Source of the DNA: Jiangella gansuensis DSM 44835
GTDB taxonomy: Bacteria > Actinomycetota > Actinomycetes > Jiangellales > Jiangellaceae
Reading direction: 5' to 3'
DNA: 64,000 nt
Assembly (NCBI RefSeq): GCF_000515395.1
Contig: NZ_KI911782.1
Location: 4,928,070-4,992,069 of the forward strand
Part shown: positions 7,726-26,818 of the stretch, one piece after another
How positions within the stretch are numbered: the stretch's first letter is position 1
Layout of the letters: each line of letters starts with the position of its first letter
Translations under genes and position numbers: made by a program
Notes under the pieces: generated by a model
Told to the model about the DNA's origin: nothing
Database searches by the model: none
The model's input: only the letters and a program-made list of their open reading frames with translations

Positions 7726-8805
7726 GTGACGCTGTCCGAGACCGCACCCCAGGCCCGCCAGCGGGCCGGCCGCGACCTGCGCGCGCTGCCGAAGGCGCAC
7801 CTGCACCTGCACTTCACCGGGTCGATGCGCCACTCGACGCTGCTCGACCTCGCGGACGAGCACGGGGTGCGGTTGCCGGACGCGTTGCGTGAGGACTGGC
7901 CGCCGGTGCTGTCCGCGGCCGACGAGAAGGGCTGGTTCCGCTTTCAGCGGCTCTACGACCTCGCCCGCTCGGTGCTGCAGACGGAGGCCGACGTGCGCCG
8001 GCTGCTGCTGGAAGCCGCACAGGATGAGGCCGCCGAGGGTTCCGGCTGGCTGGAGATCCAGGTCGACCCGTCCGGCTACGGCAGCAGGTTCGGCGGCATC
8101 ACCGCGTTCACCGACCTGGTCCTCGACGCCGCCCGGCAGGCGTCCACGTCGACGGGCGTCGGGATGGCGATCGTCATCGCGGCCAACCGCACCCGGCATC
8201 CGCTCGATGCCCGCACCCTCGCCCGCCTGGCCGCTCAGTACGCCGGCCGGGGCGTCGTCGGGTTCGGGCTCTCCAACGACGAGCGCCGCGGCGTGATCGC
8301 CGAGTTCGCGCCGGCGTTCGCGATCGCCAACCGGGCCGATCTGCTGTCCGTGCCGCACGGCGGGGAGCTACGCGGCCCCGACAGCGCCCGGGCCTGCCTG
8401 GACGACCTCGGCGCGAATCGGCTCGGGCACGGCATCCGGTCGGCGGAGGACCCAGCGCTGCTGGAGCGCGTCGCCGCGGCCGGTGTCACGCTGGAGGTCT
8501 GCCCGGCCTCGAACGTCAGCCTCGGCGTCTATCCCACCGCCGCGGACGTCCCACTACGGACGATCCGCGCCGCCGGTGCTCGGGTCGCCCTGGGCGCCGA
8601 CGACCCCCTGCTGTTCGGCTCGCGACTGCTCGAGCAATACGAGACCGCCCGGCACGTCCACGGTTTCGACGACACCGAGCTGGCCGGGCTGGCGCGCGGC
8701 TCGATCGAGGGCTCAGCCGCCCCGTCGGACGTTCGCCGGCGCCTCCTCGACGCCGTCGACGCCTGGCTTGCCTCCGATCCGGTCCCGCCCGCGCACCCGA
8801 AATGA
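7726..8805 (+). CDS. add: Adenosine deaminase
   Basis: Zinc-dependent adenosine deaminase family protein (359 aa) of purine salvage. The metal-binding L-H-L-H-F-T-G-S-M-R lies near the N-terminus, H-G-G-E carries the catalytic Glu, N-R-L-G-H-G and V-C-P-A-S-N-V follow, and L-G-A-D-D-P-L-L-F supplies the metal/acid Asp pair. The GTG at 7726 is chosen because it is the first start after the aminotransferase stop and fits the family N-terminus. The stop codon TGA is part of dispersed repeat copy A (AAATGATCACG), so the repeat begins within the gene's last codons. A related deaminase specificity cannot be excluded, but the classical men genes argue against a futalosine-pathway role. Confidence 0.9.
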   Translation: MTLSETAPQARQRAGRDLRALPKAHLHLHFTGSMRHSTLLDLADEHGVRLPDALREDWPPVLSAADEKGWFRFQRLYDLARSVLQTEADVRRLLLEAAQDEAAEGSGWLEIQVDPSGYGSRFGGITAFTDLVLDAARQASTSTGVGMAIVIAANRTRHPLDARTLARLAAQYAGRGVVGFGLSNDERRGVIAEFAPAFAIANRADLLSVPHGGELRGPDSARACLDDLGANRLGHGIRSAEDPALLERVAAAGVTLEVCPASNVSLGVYPTAADVPLRTIRAAGARVALGADDPLLFGSRLLEQYETARHVHGFDDTELAGLARGSIEGSAAPSDVRRRLLDAVDAWLASDPVPPAHPK

Positions 8806-8870
8806 TCACGTTGCCCATGGGTGTTCCCGCTTCACCAGGAATGCTTGCCTCGTGAAGCGCGAAGAGTCCT
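8799..8870 (+). repeat. Dispersed 3'-end repeat, copy A
   Basis: One of five related ~72-bp elements in the window, oriented as GAAATGATCACGTT-N-CATGGG then a hairpin. Here the stem pairs 8828-8835 (CGCTTCAC) with 8852-8859 (GTGAAGCG) around the conserved loop CAGGAATGCTTGCC. It overlaps the add stop codon and fills the gap between convergent add and the PIG-L gene. Confidence 0.8.
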
Positions 8871-8879
8871 CCGGGCGGA

Positions 8880-9710
8880 TCACACCGGTGCCGGAACCGC
8901 CGCGGCGACCGGAGCTGCGGACGTCGTCGACGCCGTCGTCGTGACATCGCCGAGCTCGTCGAGGATGCCGGGGACGCCGTCCCGCACGAACCACTCGGAG
9001 CCGTAGGCCCGGTCGAAGTCGGCCACTGGGATCGCCGCCGGCGAGACCTGGCTGGCGTGCGCGGCGATGGCAGCCCGCTTGACCTCCAGCTCGGCCGGCG
9101 TGGCGGCGAGCCGCAGCGTGACGTCGTCGCCGGGGATCCCGTACTCCATGCCGGTGGCACGCGCCGCCGCCTGCACCAAGTGTGTCGCGGCCTGCAGGTG
9201 GTCGCGGTCGACGGTGGACTGATAGCCGGCGATACCCGTCAGGCGGGCGGCCGCGGCACCGATCCGGTGCGCAGCCACGTGGTCCGGATGGCCGTAGATG
9301 CCGCGGTCGTCGTCGTGCACGATCGCCTCGGCGCCCTCCTCCTCGATCAGCGCGGCGATCCGGCGGGCGACACGGTCCGGGTCGGCGGCGGCGAGCGCGT
9401 CGGGGTGGACGTTGTCGGCGGCGCCGGGCAGGCCGGAGTCACGCTGGCCGAGAAGCACCAGCCGCTGCGCGCCGAGCAGGCCGGCTGCCTGCTCCAGTTC
9501 GGCCACGCGCCGCTGCGCCATCGTCTCGCCGGGCGCGAGCGGGACGTACACCTCGCCGAGTTCACCCAGGGTGGCGGTCACGAGGACGACCCGGGCGCCG
9601 GCGTCCGCGAGGCGTCGCATCGTCACGCCGGTGAAGATGGCTTCGTCGTCGGGGTGCGCGTGGAGGACGAGGACGGTGCGCCCACTCAGGGGCGAGGAGT
9701 TCGAGAACAT
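8880..9710 (-). CDS. PIG-L (LmbE-type) family deacetylase
   Basis: Zinc-dependent N-deacetylase of the PIG-L/LmbE family (276 aa), the family that contains MshB and Mca of mycothiol metabolism. The metal site A-H-P-D-D-E is near residue 18 and the third ligand lies in G-H-P-D-H-V-A-A-H. The final ~20 residues are Thr/Ala/Pro-rich. It is somewhat shorter than typical MshB and lacks clear MshB-specific segments, so substrate is open: GlcNAc-inositol, a mycothiol conjugate or another GlcNAc compound. A 20-codon upstream ORF ending in four Cys codons lies 67 nt before the ATG, suggesting cysteine-responsive control, which fits a thiol-related role. Confidence 0.85.
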   Translation of the reverse strand: MFSNSSPLSGRTVLVLHAHPDDEAIFTGVTMRRLADAGARVVLVTATLGELGEVYVPLAPGETMAQRRVAELEQAAGLLGAQRLVLLGQRDSGLPGAADNVHPDALAAADPDRVARRIAALIEEEGAEAIVHDDDRGIYGHPDHVAAHRIGAAAARLTGIAGYQSTVDRDHLQAATHLVQAAARATGMEYGIPGDDVTLRLAATPAELEVKRAAIAAHASQVSPAAIPVADFDRAYGSEWFVRDGVPGILDELGDVTTTASTTSAAPVAAAVPAPV

Positions 9711-9776
9711 CGCTGCCTGCTGTCAGCCATGGGCCATGACGGCCCCGGGGTGGTCGTCGGAGAAGTCGAGGACGGA

Positions 9777-9839
9777 TCAGCGACGACAACAACAGCAGGG
9801 CATGCCGACGGCGGCCAGGACGGCCACACGGTTCGGCAT
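9777..9839 (-). CDS. Poly-cysteine upstream ORF (candidate attenuator leader peptide)
   Basis: A short ORF upstream of, and on the same strand as, the PIG-L deacetylase. Read from the ATG at 9839 it encodes MPNRVAVLAAVGMPCCCCRR, then TGA. In-frame GTG codons at 9848 and 9866 could give longer versions. The four consecutive Cys codons (TGC TGT TGT TGT) next to the stop are the hallmark of the cysteine-responsive short ORFs described in mycobacteria. The last codons contain GTCGTCG (9781-9787 on the minus strand), which can pair with CGACGAC (9753-9759). A second stem, GGGCC with GGCCC, lies just before the deacetylase start. Stalling at the Cys codons would disrupt the first pairing. Translation is unproven. 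Confidence 0.6.
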   Translation of the reverse strand: MPNRVAVLAAVGMPCCCCRR

Positions 9840-9906
9840 CTCGATCACGAGCGGAGAGTCTGCCACATGGGCACGGCCTTGTGCACCCGTTTCCGCGAGG
9901 CTCGCT

Positions 9907-9978
9907 CAGGACTTCTCCCGCACACGGCAAGCATTCCTGGTGGTGCGGGAGGACCCATGGTGAACGTGATCATTTCGG
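9907..9978 (-). repeat. Dispersed 3'-end repeat, copy B
   Basis: Second copy of the ~72-bp family, reading on the minus strand from 30 nt after the hxlR stop codon. The box is GAAATGATCACGTT at the hxlR side. The stem is a perfect 9 bp, CTCCCGCAC (9915-9923) with GTGCGGGAG (9943-9951), and its sequence differs from copy A's stem while the loop GGCAAGCATTCCTG is identical. Confidence 0.8.
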
Positions 9979-10006: not shown

Positions 10007-10438
10007 TCAGGCGTCGGTCAGTTGGGCCTCGGCGGCGCGGCGGTCGTAGTCGTCTCGGGCAGCGGCGATCTCGGCCTGGTGCTCCTCGGTCCAGGTGACG
10101 AGCGCTTCGATGGTGCCGTACAGGGTGGTGCCCAGCGGCGTGAGCTCGTAGTCGACGCGGGGCGGCACGACGGGGTGCACGGTGCGCCGGACCAGGCCGT
10201 CGCGCTCCAGTTGGCGCAGCGTCACCGTGAGCATCCGCTGGCTGATGCCGTCGATCTTGCGCCGCAGTTCGGTGAAGCGCAGGCTCCGGCCGTCCAGCAG
10301 CGCGACGACCAGCAGCGACCACTTGTCCGCGATGCGGTCGAGGATCTGCCGGACGTCGCAGTCCTCGCGCGGGTCCCACAACTGGCAGTCGTCGGTATGC
10401 GCGGAGTGACCGGGTGACTTCGAAGTGCCTTCTTCCAT
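10007..10438 (-). CDS. HxlR-family winged-helix transcriptional regulator
   Basis: DNA-binding regulator (143 aa from the ATG at 10438; a TTG at 10447 is possible). HxlR signatures are C-x-V-R-Q-I-L-D-R-I-A-D-K-W-S-L-L, F-T-E-L-R-R-K-I-D-G-I-S-Q-R-M-L and L-x-R-D-G-L-V-R-R-T-V-x-P-x-V-P-P-R-V-D-Y-E-L-T. A Cys in the N-terminal segment (D-C-D-V-R) could sense thiol or quinone stress, as in some family members. It is divergent from an SDR/deazaflavin-reductase pair that it probably controls. Confidence 0.9.
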   Translation of the reverse strand: MEEGTSKSPGHSAHTDDCQLWDPREDCDVRQILDRIADKWSLLVVALLDGRSLRFTELRRKIDGISQRMLTVTLRQLERDGLVRRTVHPVVPPRVDYELTPLGTTLYGTIEALVTWTEEHQAEIAAARDDYDRRAAEAQLTDA

Positions 10439-10467
10439 GGTCGTCAATAGTGCCCGATGATGCTGTT

Positions 10468-13387: not shown

Positions 13388-14455
13388 CTACAACGCGCAG
13401 CCGACGAGGGTCGGCTCGGGCACCAACGTGACCCCGAACGTCGCGCGGACGCCGTCGCGGACCTCGCGGGCGAGCTCCAGCAGCTCCGTCGTCGTCCCGT
13501 CGCCGCGATTCGTCAGGGCCAGGGTGTGCTTGGTGGACAGCGAGACGTCGTCGAACCGCCCGGCGTAGCCGCGGTCGAAGCCGGCGTGCTGGATCAGCCA
13601 TGCGGCGCTGGTCTTGACCCGCCCGCCCGCGGCCGGGAACCGCGGCGCCGCGGCGGGCAGCGCGGCCACCTGGGCGTCGTCGAGGAGCGGGTTGGTGAAG
13701 AACGAGCCGGCACTCCACGTGTCGTGGTCGTCGGCGTCGAGCACCATGCCCTTGCCGGCCCGCAGCGCCAGCACCGCGGGGCGGACGTCGGCCAGCCGCG
13801 CTCGCTCGCCCACCGCCACGTCGAGCCGGCGGGCCAGTTCGGGGTAGGCGACGGGTGCGCCCAGATCGCCCTCGCGCAGTTGGTAGCTGACGGACAGGAT
13901 CACGTACCGGTCCGAGCCCTTGAAGCGGCTGTCACGGTAGGCGAAGCGGCAGTCGGCGTTGGCGAAGGTGCGGATGCGGCGGTCCTGGCGGTCGTAGGTG
14001 CGGACCTGCCAGATCGTCTGCGCCACCTCCTGACCGTAGGCGCCGACGTTCTGCATGGGAGTGGCGCCGACCAGGCCGGGGATGCCCGAGAGGGCCTCGA
14101 TGCCCGACCACTCCTGATCGACGGCGTACGCGACGAGGTCGTCCCACGACTCGCCGGCCGCTGCGGACACCAGGATGCCCCCGCACGCGGCCAGCGCACC
14201 GGAGTCGCAGGACGCGGAGGTGTCGGCCTCGACCCCCCGGGTGGCGACCCGGACCACCGTGCCGTCGAAGCCGGAGTCGGCGACCACCAGGTTCGAGCCG
14301 CCGCCGACCAGCAGTACCGGCTCGCCGCGCTCGTCCGCGTCACGGACCGCGGCCACCAGCTCGTCCTCGGTGGTCGCCTCGACGACCCGCTTGGCGGGGC
14401 CGCCCAGACGGAGCGTCGTCAAGGCGGCGAGGGGGACGTCGAAGGTCTCGCGCAT
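13388..14455 (-). CDS. murB: UDP-N-acetylenolpyruvoylglucosamine reductase MurB
   Basis: FAD/NADPH enzyme (355 aa) that makes UDP-N-acetylmuramic acid in peptidoglycan synthesis. The FAD domain has T-T-L-R-L-G-G-P-A and L-V-G-G-G-S-N-L-V-V-A-D-S-G-F-D-G. The G-I-P-G-L-V-G-A-T-P-M-Q-N-V-G-A-Y-G-Q-E segment and the catalytic S-F-F-T-N-P are present, and the C-terminal H-T-L-A-L-T-N-R-G is type I. The ATG at 14455 is preferred: GGAG lies 6 nt upstream and the family begins there. An in-frame start at 14512 would overlap the upstream dehydratase. It follows rpmG and the two MaoC genes, a conserved actinobacterial set. Confidence 0.96.
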   Translation of the reverse strand: MRETFDVPLAALTTLRLGGPAKRVVEATTEDELVAAVRDADERGEPVLLVGGGSNLVVADSGFDGTVVRVATRGVEADTSASCDSGALAACGGILVSAAAGESWDDLVAYAVDQEWSGIEALSGIPGLVGATPMQNVGAYGQEVAQTIWQVRTYDRQDRRIRTFANADCRFAYRDSRFKGSDRYVILSVSYQLREGDLGAPVAYPELARRLDVAVGERARLADVRPAVLALRAGKGMVLDADDHDTWSAGSFFTNPLLDDAQVAALPAAAPRFPAAGGRVKTSAAWLIQHAGFDRGYAGRFDDVSLSTKHTLALTNRGDGTTTELLELAREVRDGVRATFGVTLVPEPTLVGCAL

Positions 14456-14469
14456 GGCCTGCTCCAGGG

Positions 14470-14922
14470 TCAGGACGCCGGCGGCGCGGACGGGGCTGCC
14501 GGCGGCCGGCACAGCGCGCGGGCCTGTGTCAGGACCTTCTGGTCGTCGACGCGGACGGTGATCTCGAGGGCGACGACGCCGTCGTCGCGCACCTCGGTGA
14601 CGGACGCGGCCACCCGGACGGCCACGCCGGTGTCGTCGTCGGGGACCACGACCGGGCGGGCGAAGCGGACGCCGTACTCGATGACGGCGGCGGGGTCGCC
14701 CAGCCAGTCGGTGAGCAGCCGGGCCGCCAGGCCCATGGTGAGCATGCCGTGCGCGATCACGCCGGGCAGCCCGACGGAGGTGGCGACGCGCTCGTTCCAG
14801 TGGATGGGGTTGAAGTCGCCGGACGCTCCCGCGTACCGGACCAGGTGCTCGCGCGTGATCCAGTACGTGTGGTCGGCGACGACCTCGCCCACGGCGAGCA
14901 TCTCGGTCACCCGCTCAGTCAC
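14470..14922 (-). CDS. MaoC-like (R)-hydratase, HadB-type
   Basis: Hot-dog-fold enoyl hydratase/dehydratase (150 aa, GTG start). The hydratase-2 motif appears as Y-A-G-A-S-G-D-F-N-P-I-H-W with catalytic Asp and His, followed by G-V-I-A-H-G-M-L-T-M-G. In mycobacteria the HadA/HadB pair dehydrates 3-hydroxyacyl-ACP in FAS-II; the same gene order next to rpmG is found in actinobacteria lacking mycolic acids, where the substrate is less clear. The stop of the upstream partner overlaps its GTG by 4 nt. Confidence 0.88.
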   Translation of the reverse strand: MTERVTEMLAVGEVVADHTYWITREHLVRYAGASGDFNPIHWNERVATSVGLPGVIAHGMLTMGLAARLLTDWLGDPAAVIEYGVRFARPVVVPDDDTGVAVRVAASVTEVRDDGVVALEITVRVDDQKVLTQARALCRPPAAPSAPPAS

Positions 14923-26375: not shown

Positions 26376-26447
26376 GCGTTCTCCCGCCGCGGCAGGCGTG
26401 CATGCGTGGGAAGCGGGACGACCCATGCCGAACGTGATCATTTCCGG
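26376..26447 (-). repeat. Dispersed 3'-end repeat, copy D
   Basis: Minus-strand copy with the conserved GGAAATGATCACGTTCGGCA box (26424-26443). The stem is TCCCGC (26382-26387) with GCGGGA (26413-26418). The loop is of a second subtype shared with copy E, carrying GGCAGGC and TGCATGCGTGGG on the plus strand. Confidence 0.75.
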
Positions 26448-26746: not shown

Positions 26747-26818
26747 GCGCCTTACCGCCGCGGCAGGCATGCATGCGTGGGGAGGCGGGAAGACCCATGC
26801 CGAACGTGATCATTTCCC
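26747..26818 (-). repeat. Dispersed 3'-end repeat, copy E
   Basis: Minus-strand copy beginning about 50 nt after the polyprenyl synthase stop codon, with GAAATGATCACGTTCGGCAT. The stem is TTACCGCC (26752-26759) with GGCGGGAA (26784-26791), seven of eight pairs. The loop belongs to the D/E subtype. Confidence 0.8.

Follow-up and report, generated by a model that had tools for sequence, protein, structure and literature searches.

A short open reading frame (ORF) ending in a run of cysteine codons precedes a hydrolase gene of the PIG-L/LmbE family in Jiangella gansuensis, and we read the region as a cysteine-responsive translational attenuator of the leaderless poly-Cys type, a reading to which we give a probability of roughly three in four. 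The gene (8880-9710, minus strand; Pfam PIG-L, 1.4e-24) is a third paralogue beside MshB and Mca. A cysteine attenuator had already been proposed in a first-pass annotation of the window (the whole 64-kb stretch of DNA analysed), and conservation of the leader before orthologous genes makes it the best-supported reading. The poly-Cys ORF itself is real and strongly conserved.

The leader ORF (9848-9777, minus strand) opens with GTG and encodes 23 amino acids, VIEMPNRVAVLAAVGMPCCCCRR, ending in PCCCCRR before a TGA stop. Direct reading of the minus strand bears out the Met-Pro-Cys-Cys-Cys-Cys-Arg-Arg-stop ending first described, and shows the proposed sensor codons to be TGC TGT TGT TGT (9786-9797, minus strand). 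Two details of the first-pass annotation needed correction: the distance from the stop codon (9779-9777) to the PIG-L ATG at 9710 is 66 nt and not 67 nt, and the start, placed at the ATG at 9839, moves to the GTG at 9848, which is common to all 20 orthologous loci. A -10-like hexamer, CAGACT (9862-9857, minus strand), stands 8 nt 5' of this GTG as a predicted leaderless promoter, and the mRNA would thus begin at the GTG itself. The order CAxxxT, 7-8 nt, GTG is kept in every one of the 20 loci, and in their alignment TGGCA and the last T of the -10-like box are invariant. A generic sigma-70 promoter scan found no site at the leader, and Rfam matches at gathering score comprised four tRNAs across the whole window and none over the leader. 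Directly 5' of the Cys codons, within the leader coding sequence, a hairpin (P1; 9801-9839, minus strand) is predicted.

Searching 60 related genomes with the protein as query recovered PIG-L orthologues at 63-84% identity in 20 genomes, all of the window's own family; besides the window's genome these are 11 from its genus and eight from three other genera. In two more family genomes, which are 75% and 81% complete, this protein search found nothing above 43-45% identity. The leader, comprising a GTG, three to five consecutive Cys codons and a stop, is kept at all 20 orthologues; the GTG sits 51, 54 or 57 nt 5' of the first Cys codon, and the run is followed by Arg, at times by one more Cys, and then by TGA. 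A uniform leader scan chose the same GTG in 19 of the 20, the longest qualifying start at the remaining locus (L017) lying further upstream. When the family was scanned for the pattern TGTTGT-spacer-CAGCAGG-ATG, the PIG-L locus matched in 20 of 22 genomes, and in 20/20 of those at least 90% complete; the scan also gave extra matches elsewhere in these genomes.

The surroundings of the leader vary. At several loci of the other genera it seems, by eye, to adjoin the end of murB directly; in the window's genus the end of an HxlR-type gene lies upstream of it, and in the window further genes stand between murB and PIG-L (the positions concerned are 10007-10447 and 13388-14512, both minus strand). 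A repeat, AATGATCACGTT..CCATGGGT..TCCCG, flanks PIG-L and its leader in two copies that face each other, at 8801-8829 (plus strand) and 9946-9974 (minus strand). The same repeat recurs at 26414-26442 and 26786-26814 (minus strand), and genome-wide it has 174 matches with up to three mismatches (0 for a reversed control), some of them in close facing pairs; it is a dispersed repeat family.

The leader, its conservation, its complementarity to the ribosome-binding site (RBS) and the predicted sequestration of that site are drawn from comparison or prediction. In the window the Pro-Cys-Cys codons, CCTGCTGT (9799-9792, minus strand), form the 5' arm of a predicted RBS-sequestering helix whose 3' arm, ACAGCAGG (9723-9716, minus strand), is their exact complement and overlaps the presumed PIG-L RBS. 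The heptamer CAGCAGG within that site, a weak Shine-Dalgarno sequence, is invariant in all 20 loci and lies 2-7 nt 5' of an ATG in frame with PIG-L; among 78 loci outside the family just one has it within 140 nt upstream. The exact letters of CCTGCTGT are kept in 16 of the 20, CTGCTGT in 17 and ACAGCAGG in 17. Mean column identity of the alignment from Cys codons to ATG is only 61%, and the invariant letters therefore stand out.

Folded as single sequences, all 20 family leaders are predicted to pair CAGCAGG with a segment that opens one codon ahead of the Cys run and closes at the stop, at a mean probability of 0.76-1.00, and in every minimum-energy fold six or seven of its seven bases are so paired. 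The window leader itself folds 3.75 sd below dinucleotide shuffles. The register of the helix is not rigid: 14 of the 20 minimum-energy folds use the first, and in six it slides along the Cys codons. In a consensus fold of the whole leader, which aligns the Cys runs of the two groups from the stop codon, the RBS takes as its partner the last leader codons, GTCGCTG, which are partly complementary too. Consensus folding found no changes on both sides of the RBS helix, and as CAGCAGG is invariant, the case for pairing rests on conservation and on the single-sequence folds. Sequestration of the RBS by the Cys-codon region is thus a prediction for the family loci. A ribosome footprint modelled at the first Cys codon brought total CAGCAGG pairing in the 20 leaders down to 0.29-0.76, from 0.86-1.00 without it, with substantial residual pairing left.

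A different pairing had been singled out at first, between GTCGTCG (9787-9781) and CGACGAC (9759-9753), both on the minus strand. The complementarity is present in the sequence, and in the window's minimum-energy fold the two arms form the inner part of the same hairpin; the helix that would hide the RBS is instead that between the Cys codons and CAGCAGG. As the main switch we rejected the GTCGTCG/CGACGAC helix, which makes no contact with the RBS and of which the relatives share only the short GTCG and CGAC cores. GTCG is invariant at the 3' end of the leader, and all 20 spacers contain the 4-mer CGAC, which says little because the spacer is GC-rich. The GGGCC/GGCCC stem reported before the PIG-L start is likewise present, as a local hairpin of the leader-RBS spacer in the window fold (9745-9731, minus strand; arms 9745-9741 and 9735-9731), and by eye the spacers of relatives fold into local GC-rich hairpins with other letters.

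Hairpin P1 has moderate support from modelling. A hairpin at its position appears in the minimum-energy fold of 20/20 leaders, and its energy lies below the mean of a synonymous-codon null, for which third-base frequencies were assumed, in 18 of them (mean z about -1.5) and in the lowest 5% in seven. Its pairs take differing registers between genera, the stem reaching 19 bp at one locus (L019), and the whole-leader consensus fold did not return it.

We infer from these features that the leader is translated, that ribosomes can stall in it, that cysteine is the signal and in which direction regulation runs. On a leaderless mRNA beginning at the GTG at 9848, a 70S ribosome would translate the 23-codon leader at once. 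With Cys-tRNA plentiful, it would pass the four Cys codons and leave at the TGA; the freed CCUGCUGU, aided by the GUCGUCG/CGACGAC inner helix, would then pair with ACAGCAGG and hide the PIG-L RBS, and little enzyme would be made. With Cys-tRNA scarce, the ribosome would stall on the Cys codons and cover both 5' arms, leaving ACAGCAGG freer and PIG-L open to translation. As stalling would free the RBS, the PIG-L gene would be induced by cysteine starvation.

Control could instead act on transcription, by Rho-dependent or intrinsic premature termination 3' of the leader that stalling relieves, the pairing of the RBS being of minor account. Rho-dependent termination was proposed in 2005 for mycobacterial cys leaders that lack conserved terminators (PMC1262725), and the spacer between leader and PIG-L is C-rich. 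The window also holds one weak terminator-like match (9807-9793, against 0.1 expected), but this stem falls within the leader ORF, and a scan of the window found no terminator hairpin with a U-tract in the spacer. The highest conservation 3' of the leader is that of the RBS (CAGCAGG, 20/20), for which a transcriptional mechanism has no need, and we consider such control unlikely. Translational coupling, in which translating the leader opens up the RBS or hands ribosomes on to PIG-L while the Cys codons tune the process without stalling, would reverse the direction of control, with cysteine plenty giving more PIG-L. In its favour, the uORF sits immediately 5' of the gene and the leader RNA is highly structured. 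Its stop, however, precedes CAGCAGG by 49-61 nt in all 20 loci, which is far for reinitiation or coupling, and the Cys run lies within the RBS-pairing arm, as control by stalling would have it. We regard coupling as distinctly improbable.

The letters of the Cys run bear on whether the peptide or the RNA is the object of selection. Cys codons of the 20 leaders divide between TGT and TGC at 59:25, against 1:14 in 11 genes of the window picked by the analyst, and this preference for TGT suggests that the letters, and not the amino acids, are under constraint. Were the leader peptide a functional Cys-rich microprotein, binding a metal or acting in redox, with the RNA pairing incidental, its vicinal Cys residues within a conserved short ORF would be as expected; the residues 5' of the run, however, vary widely between genera, and the conservation is at nucleotide level, in the TGT third bases and the complementary RBS. 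A microprotein role is accordingly very hard to credit.

To compare loci inside and outside the family we defined a leader as an ORF of 8-50 codons, no more than 420 nt upstream, with at least three Cys in its last 14 residues and a -10-like box before the start. We scanned 110 loci, which include the best 80 among the matches listed: 20 of the family, two duplicates, 13 and two outside it, and 73 distant. Such a leader was found at 34, an ORF without the box at five and nothing at 71. It is present at all 20 family orthologues, at both duplicates (L031, L032) and at 12 of the 13 outside orthologues (L033-L045), whose 55-60% identity extends along almost the entire gene. The first-pass annotation had staked its proposal on conservation of the Cys run before orthologues, and this is what the family and outside orthologues display. 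The exception among the 13, L043, has kept only two Cys. Of two further loci at 57% identity neither has such a leader, L047 having none and L059, a shorter match, having MTRELACRCSCCCCR without the box; among the matches listed, the same is true of all 73 more distant PIG-L loci. Among 2210 control windows of 420 nt taken from these loci, six fitted the definition. That the window's poly-Cys frame arose by chance and lacks function is scarcely credible: short ORFs are common here, with 13 that reach 20 aa or more overlapping the surrounding 600 bases, but this one is conserved at 20/20 loci and, among the loci scanned, its kind is confined to one PIG-L clade, above so low a background.

The outside leaders, whose Cys runs are often broken by Arg or Pro-Gly, stand before orthologues in Pseudonocardia, in Actinocatenispora and in two other metagenome-assembled genomes (MAGs), and we folded 12 of them. 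At L039 (Actinocatenispora) and at the MAG loci L041 and L045, the letters of the RBS differ from CAGCAGG, yet for most of its bases the folds give a probability near 1 of pairing with the Cys/stop part of the leader at the same locus. Cross-pairing of isolated duplexes on these three RBSs favours their own leader over family leaders by 1.0-5.6 kcal/mol. In the reverse exchange, family RBSs pair worse than the own RBS with the L039 and L041 leaders and better than it with the L045 leader.

Leaders in Pseudonocardia are built differently, after the type RCCPGCCCRCCRS (for example ..CCPGCC.RCCRS), and most of the loci (L033-L038, L040, L042, L044) share GTCTGCGA before the PIG-L start, as judged by eye. 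Pairing of the RBS with the Cys run was predicted in 0/9 Pseudonocardia loci among the 12 outside leaders folded, and seven loci retested with a modelled stalled ribosome gave no consistent difference. Isolated leader/RBS duplexes of -12.4 to -23.9 kcal/mol in eight loci indicate some complementarity. With neither consistent Cys-run pairing nor a consistent change on stalling, we set aside the idea that Pseudonocardia carries the same device; as consistent pairing with the Cys run is lacking, the switch there may work differently.

A genome-wide poly-Cys regulon was sought and rejected. The pattern TGYTGYTGY followed by TGA within 9 nt gave 60 matches against 109 in a reversed control; interrupted Cys leaders, such as those of Pseudonocardia, would escape it. 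We examined 58 match neighbourhoods (L111-L168), the window leader being left out and two overlapping matches sharing one, and three ORFs that passed for Cys content and -10-like box (two in L122, one in L125) were judged by eye to be chance.

We placed 116 PIG-L proteins in a quick tree, omitting L031 and L032 as copies of L008 and L014, and labelled 36 rows as leader-bearing: the 32 that fit the definition once duplicates are left out, together with L059, L191, L192 and L193. All 36 fall within one clade of 45 (SH-aLRT 87), and the leader label needs five changes on this tree against a mean of 30.9 for shuffled labels. Nine clade members are without the label: L043 and L195, which by eye hold two-Cys remnants; L046, L047 and L048, with no qualifying ORF; L088 and L105, where an ORF containing Cys lacks the box; L194, placed in the tree with its upstream region unread; and L190 (genome G232), an orthologue without a leader that by eye stands directly behind a P450-like gene and has perhaps been recruited to a biosynthetic cluster. 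On the same quick tree the leader clade stands apart from MshB and Mca of the J. gansuensis genome. Orthologues are sparse, those at E up to 1e-70 occurring in 22 of 393 genomes of the class, in 5 of 120 in the family of G232 and in 1 of 12 in the family of G103.

The link to mycothiol that was first drawn through the PIG-L family is only partly borne out. The protein is a PIG-L hydrolase with MshB-type residues; it is neither MshB nor Mca, for which the genome has separate genes and whose cut-offs it does not reach. Against TIGR03445 (MshB) it scores 121.2 bits (cut-off 224.35; the genome's MshB, 362.2) and against TIGR03446 (Mca) 85.9 bits (cut-off 277.15; the genome's Mca, 473.9), and its identity to these two proteins is 33% and 27%, respectively. 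The metal site, HxDD plus a further His, is present (H19-x-D21-D22, H144), and Y139, H141, R68 and D91 are also conserved across six aligned sequences that include the genome's own MshB and Mca. Set against the catalytic and substrate-binding residues of MshB, as given in passages of PMC4101496, equivalents of the metal ligands, Asp15, Tyr142, His144, Arg68 and Asp95 are all kept, and like MshB and Mca the enzyme has the PIG-L fold; it differs from both in scoring below the two equivalog cut-offs and in forming a separate clade. The closest solved structure by sequence is MshB (1.1e-24), and by fold eight MshB chains rank first, at a query TM of 0.62-0.68 for a model with pLDDT 79.7. Given its MshB-type residues and MshB as its nearest structure, the enzyme is probably active and would hydrolyse a compound of the N-acyl-glucosamine type. 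Mycothiol, or a molecule related to it, is a possible substrate, a link that we offer as a hypothesis built on the conserved MshB-type catalytic and substrate-binding residues.

The nearest known systems are mycobacterial. Canestrari et al. (2020, Mol Microbiol 114:93), as cited in PMC9094748, PMC9031893 and PMC13236596, reported cysteine-responsive attenuation in M. smegmatis, where leaderless polycysteine small ORFs (sORFs) exert control through a cysteine-dependent speed of the ribosome, called translation attenuation in a citing paper; sequestration of the RBS appears as a mycobacterial mechanism in a general statement in PMC13236596. Like those sORFs, the leader described here is a short ORF of contiguous Cys codons before a gene, with a start predicted to be leaderless. 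The reported mycobacterial targets include genes of cysteine biosynthesis, whereas the present leader would act on an uncharacterised PIG-L hydrolase, both in the window's family and in Pseudonocardia and other groups. Earlier, Seliverstov et al. (2005; PMC1262725) predicted Cys leader peptides of Mycobacterium, P. acnes and B. longum cbs without a clear mechanism, and Shell et al. (2015; PMC4633059) detected leaderless Cys-rich uORFs in mycobacteria by ribosome profiling, the cysA2 uORF among them, and left the mechanism open. Both resemble the present leader in being short ORFs before a gene with Cys codons near the stop. For the Seliverstov leaders no conserved terminator hairpin was reported; the present leader differs in the predicted pairing of its Cys codons with the RBS. 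In the LEU element before actinobacterial leuA, also described in PMC1262725, successive regulatory codons pair with the Shine-Dalgarno box in a stem, as predicted here, though with leucine codons, a pseudoknot and another gene and signal. Among the titles and abstract openings surveyed in an open-access library, none connected Cys leaders with PIG-L genes or with the organisms treated here. On present sequence comparisons, the leader is best filed as a poly-Cys attenuator like the mycobacterial ones, acting on a new target.

These results may carry cysteine attenuation beyond mycobacterial operons and into further groups of actinobacteria, and the pair formed by the Cys codons and CAGCAGG would provide a compact case for control of a downstream RBS by a uORF. 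An uncharacterised hydrolase clade would thereby be tied to cysteine supply, a clue to function that annotation alone cannot give. A bolder proposal, which we advance tentatively and hold to be rather doubtful as it stands, is that the leader clade constitutes a third thiol-cofactor enzyme, induced by cysteine starvation, which would open mycothiol or a related N-acyl-cysteinyl-glucosamine and release N-acetylcysteine or cysteine. The redox buffer of the cell would then double as a cysteine reserve, with the leaderless poly-Cys translational switch as its gate, and mycothiol-type compounds as a cysteine store would be a testable proposal.
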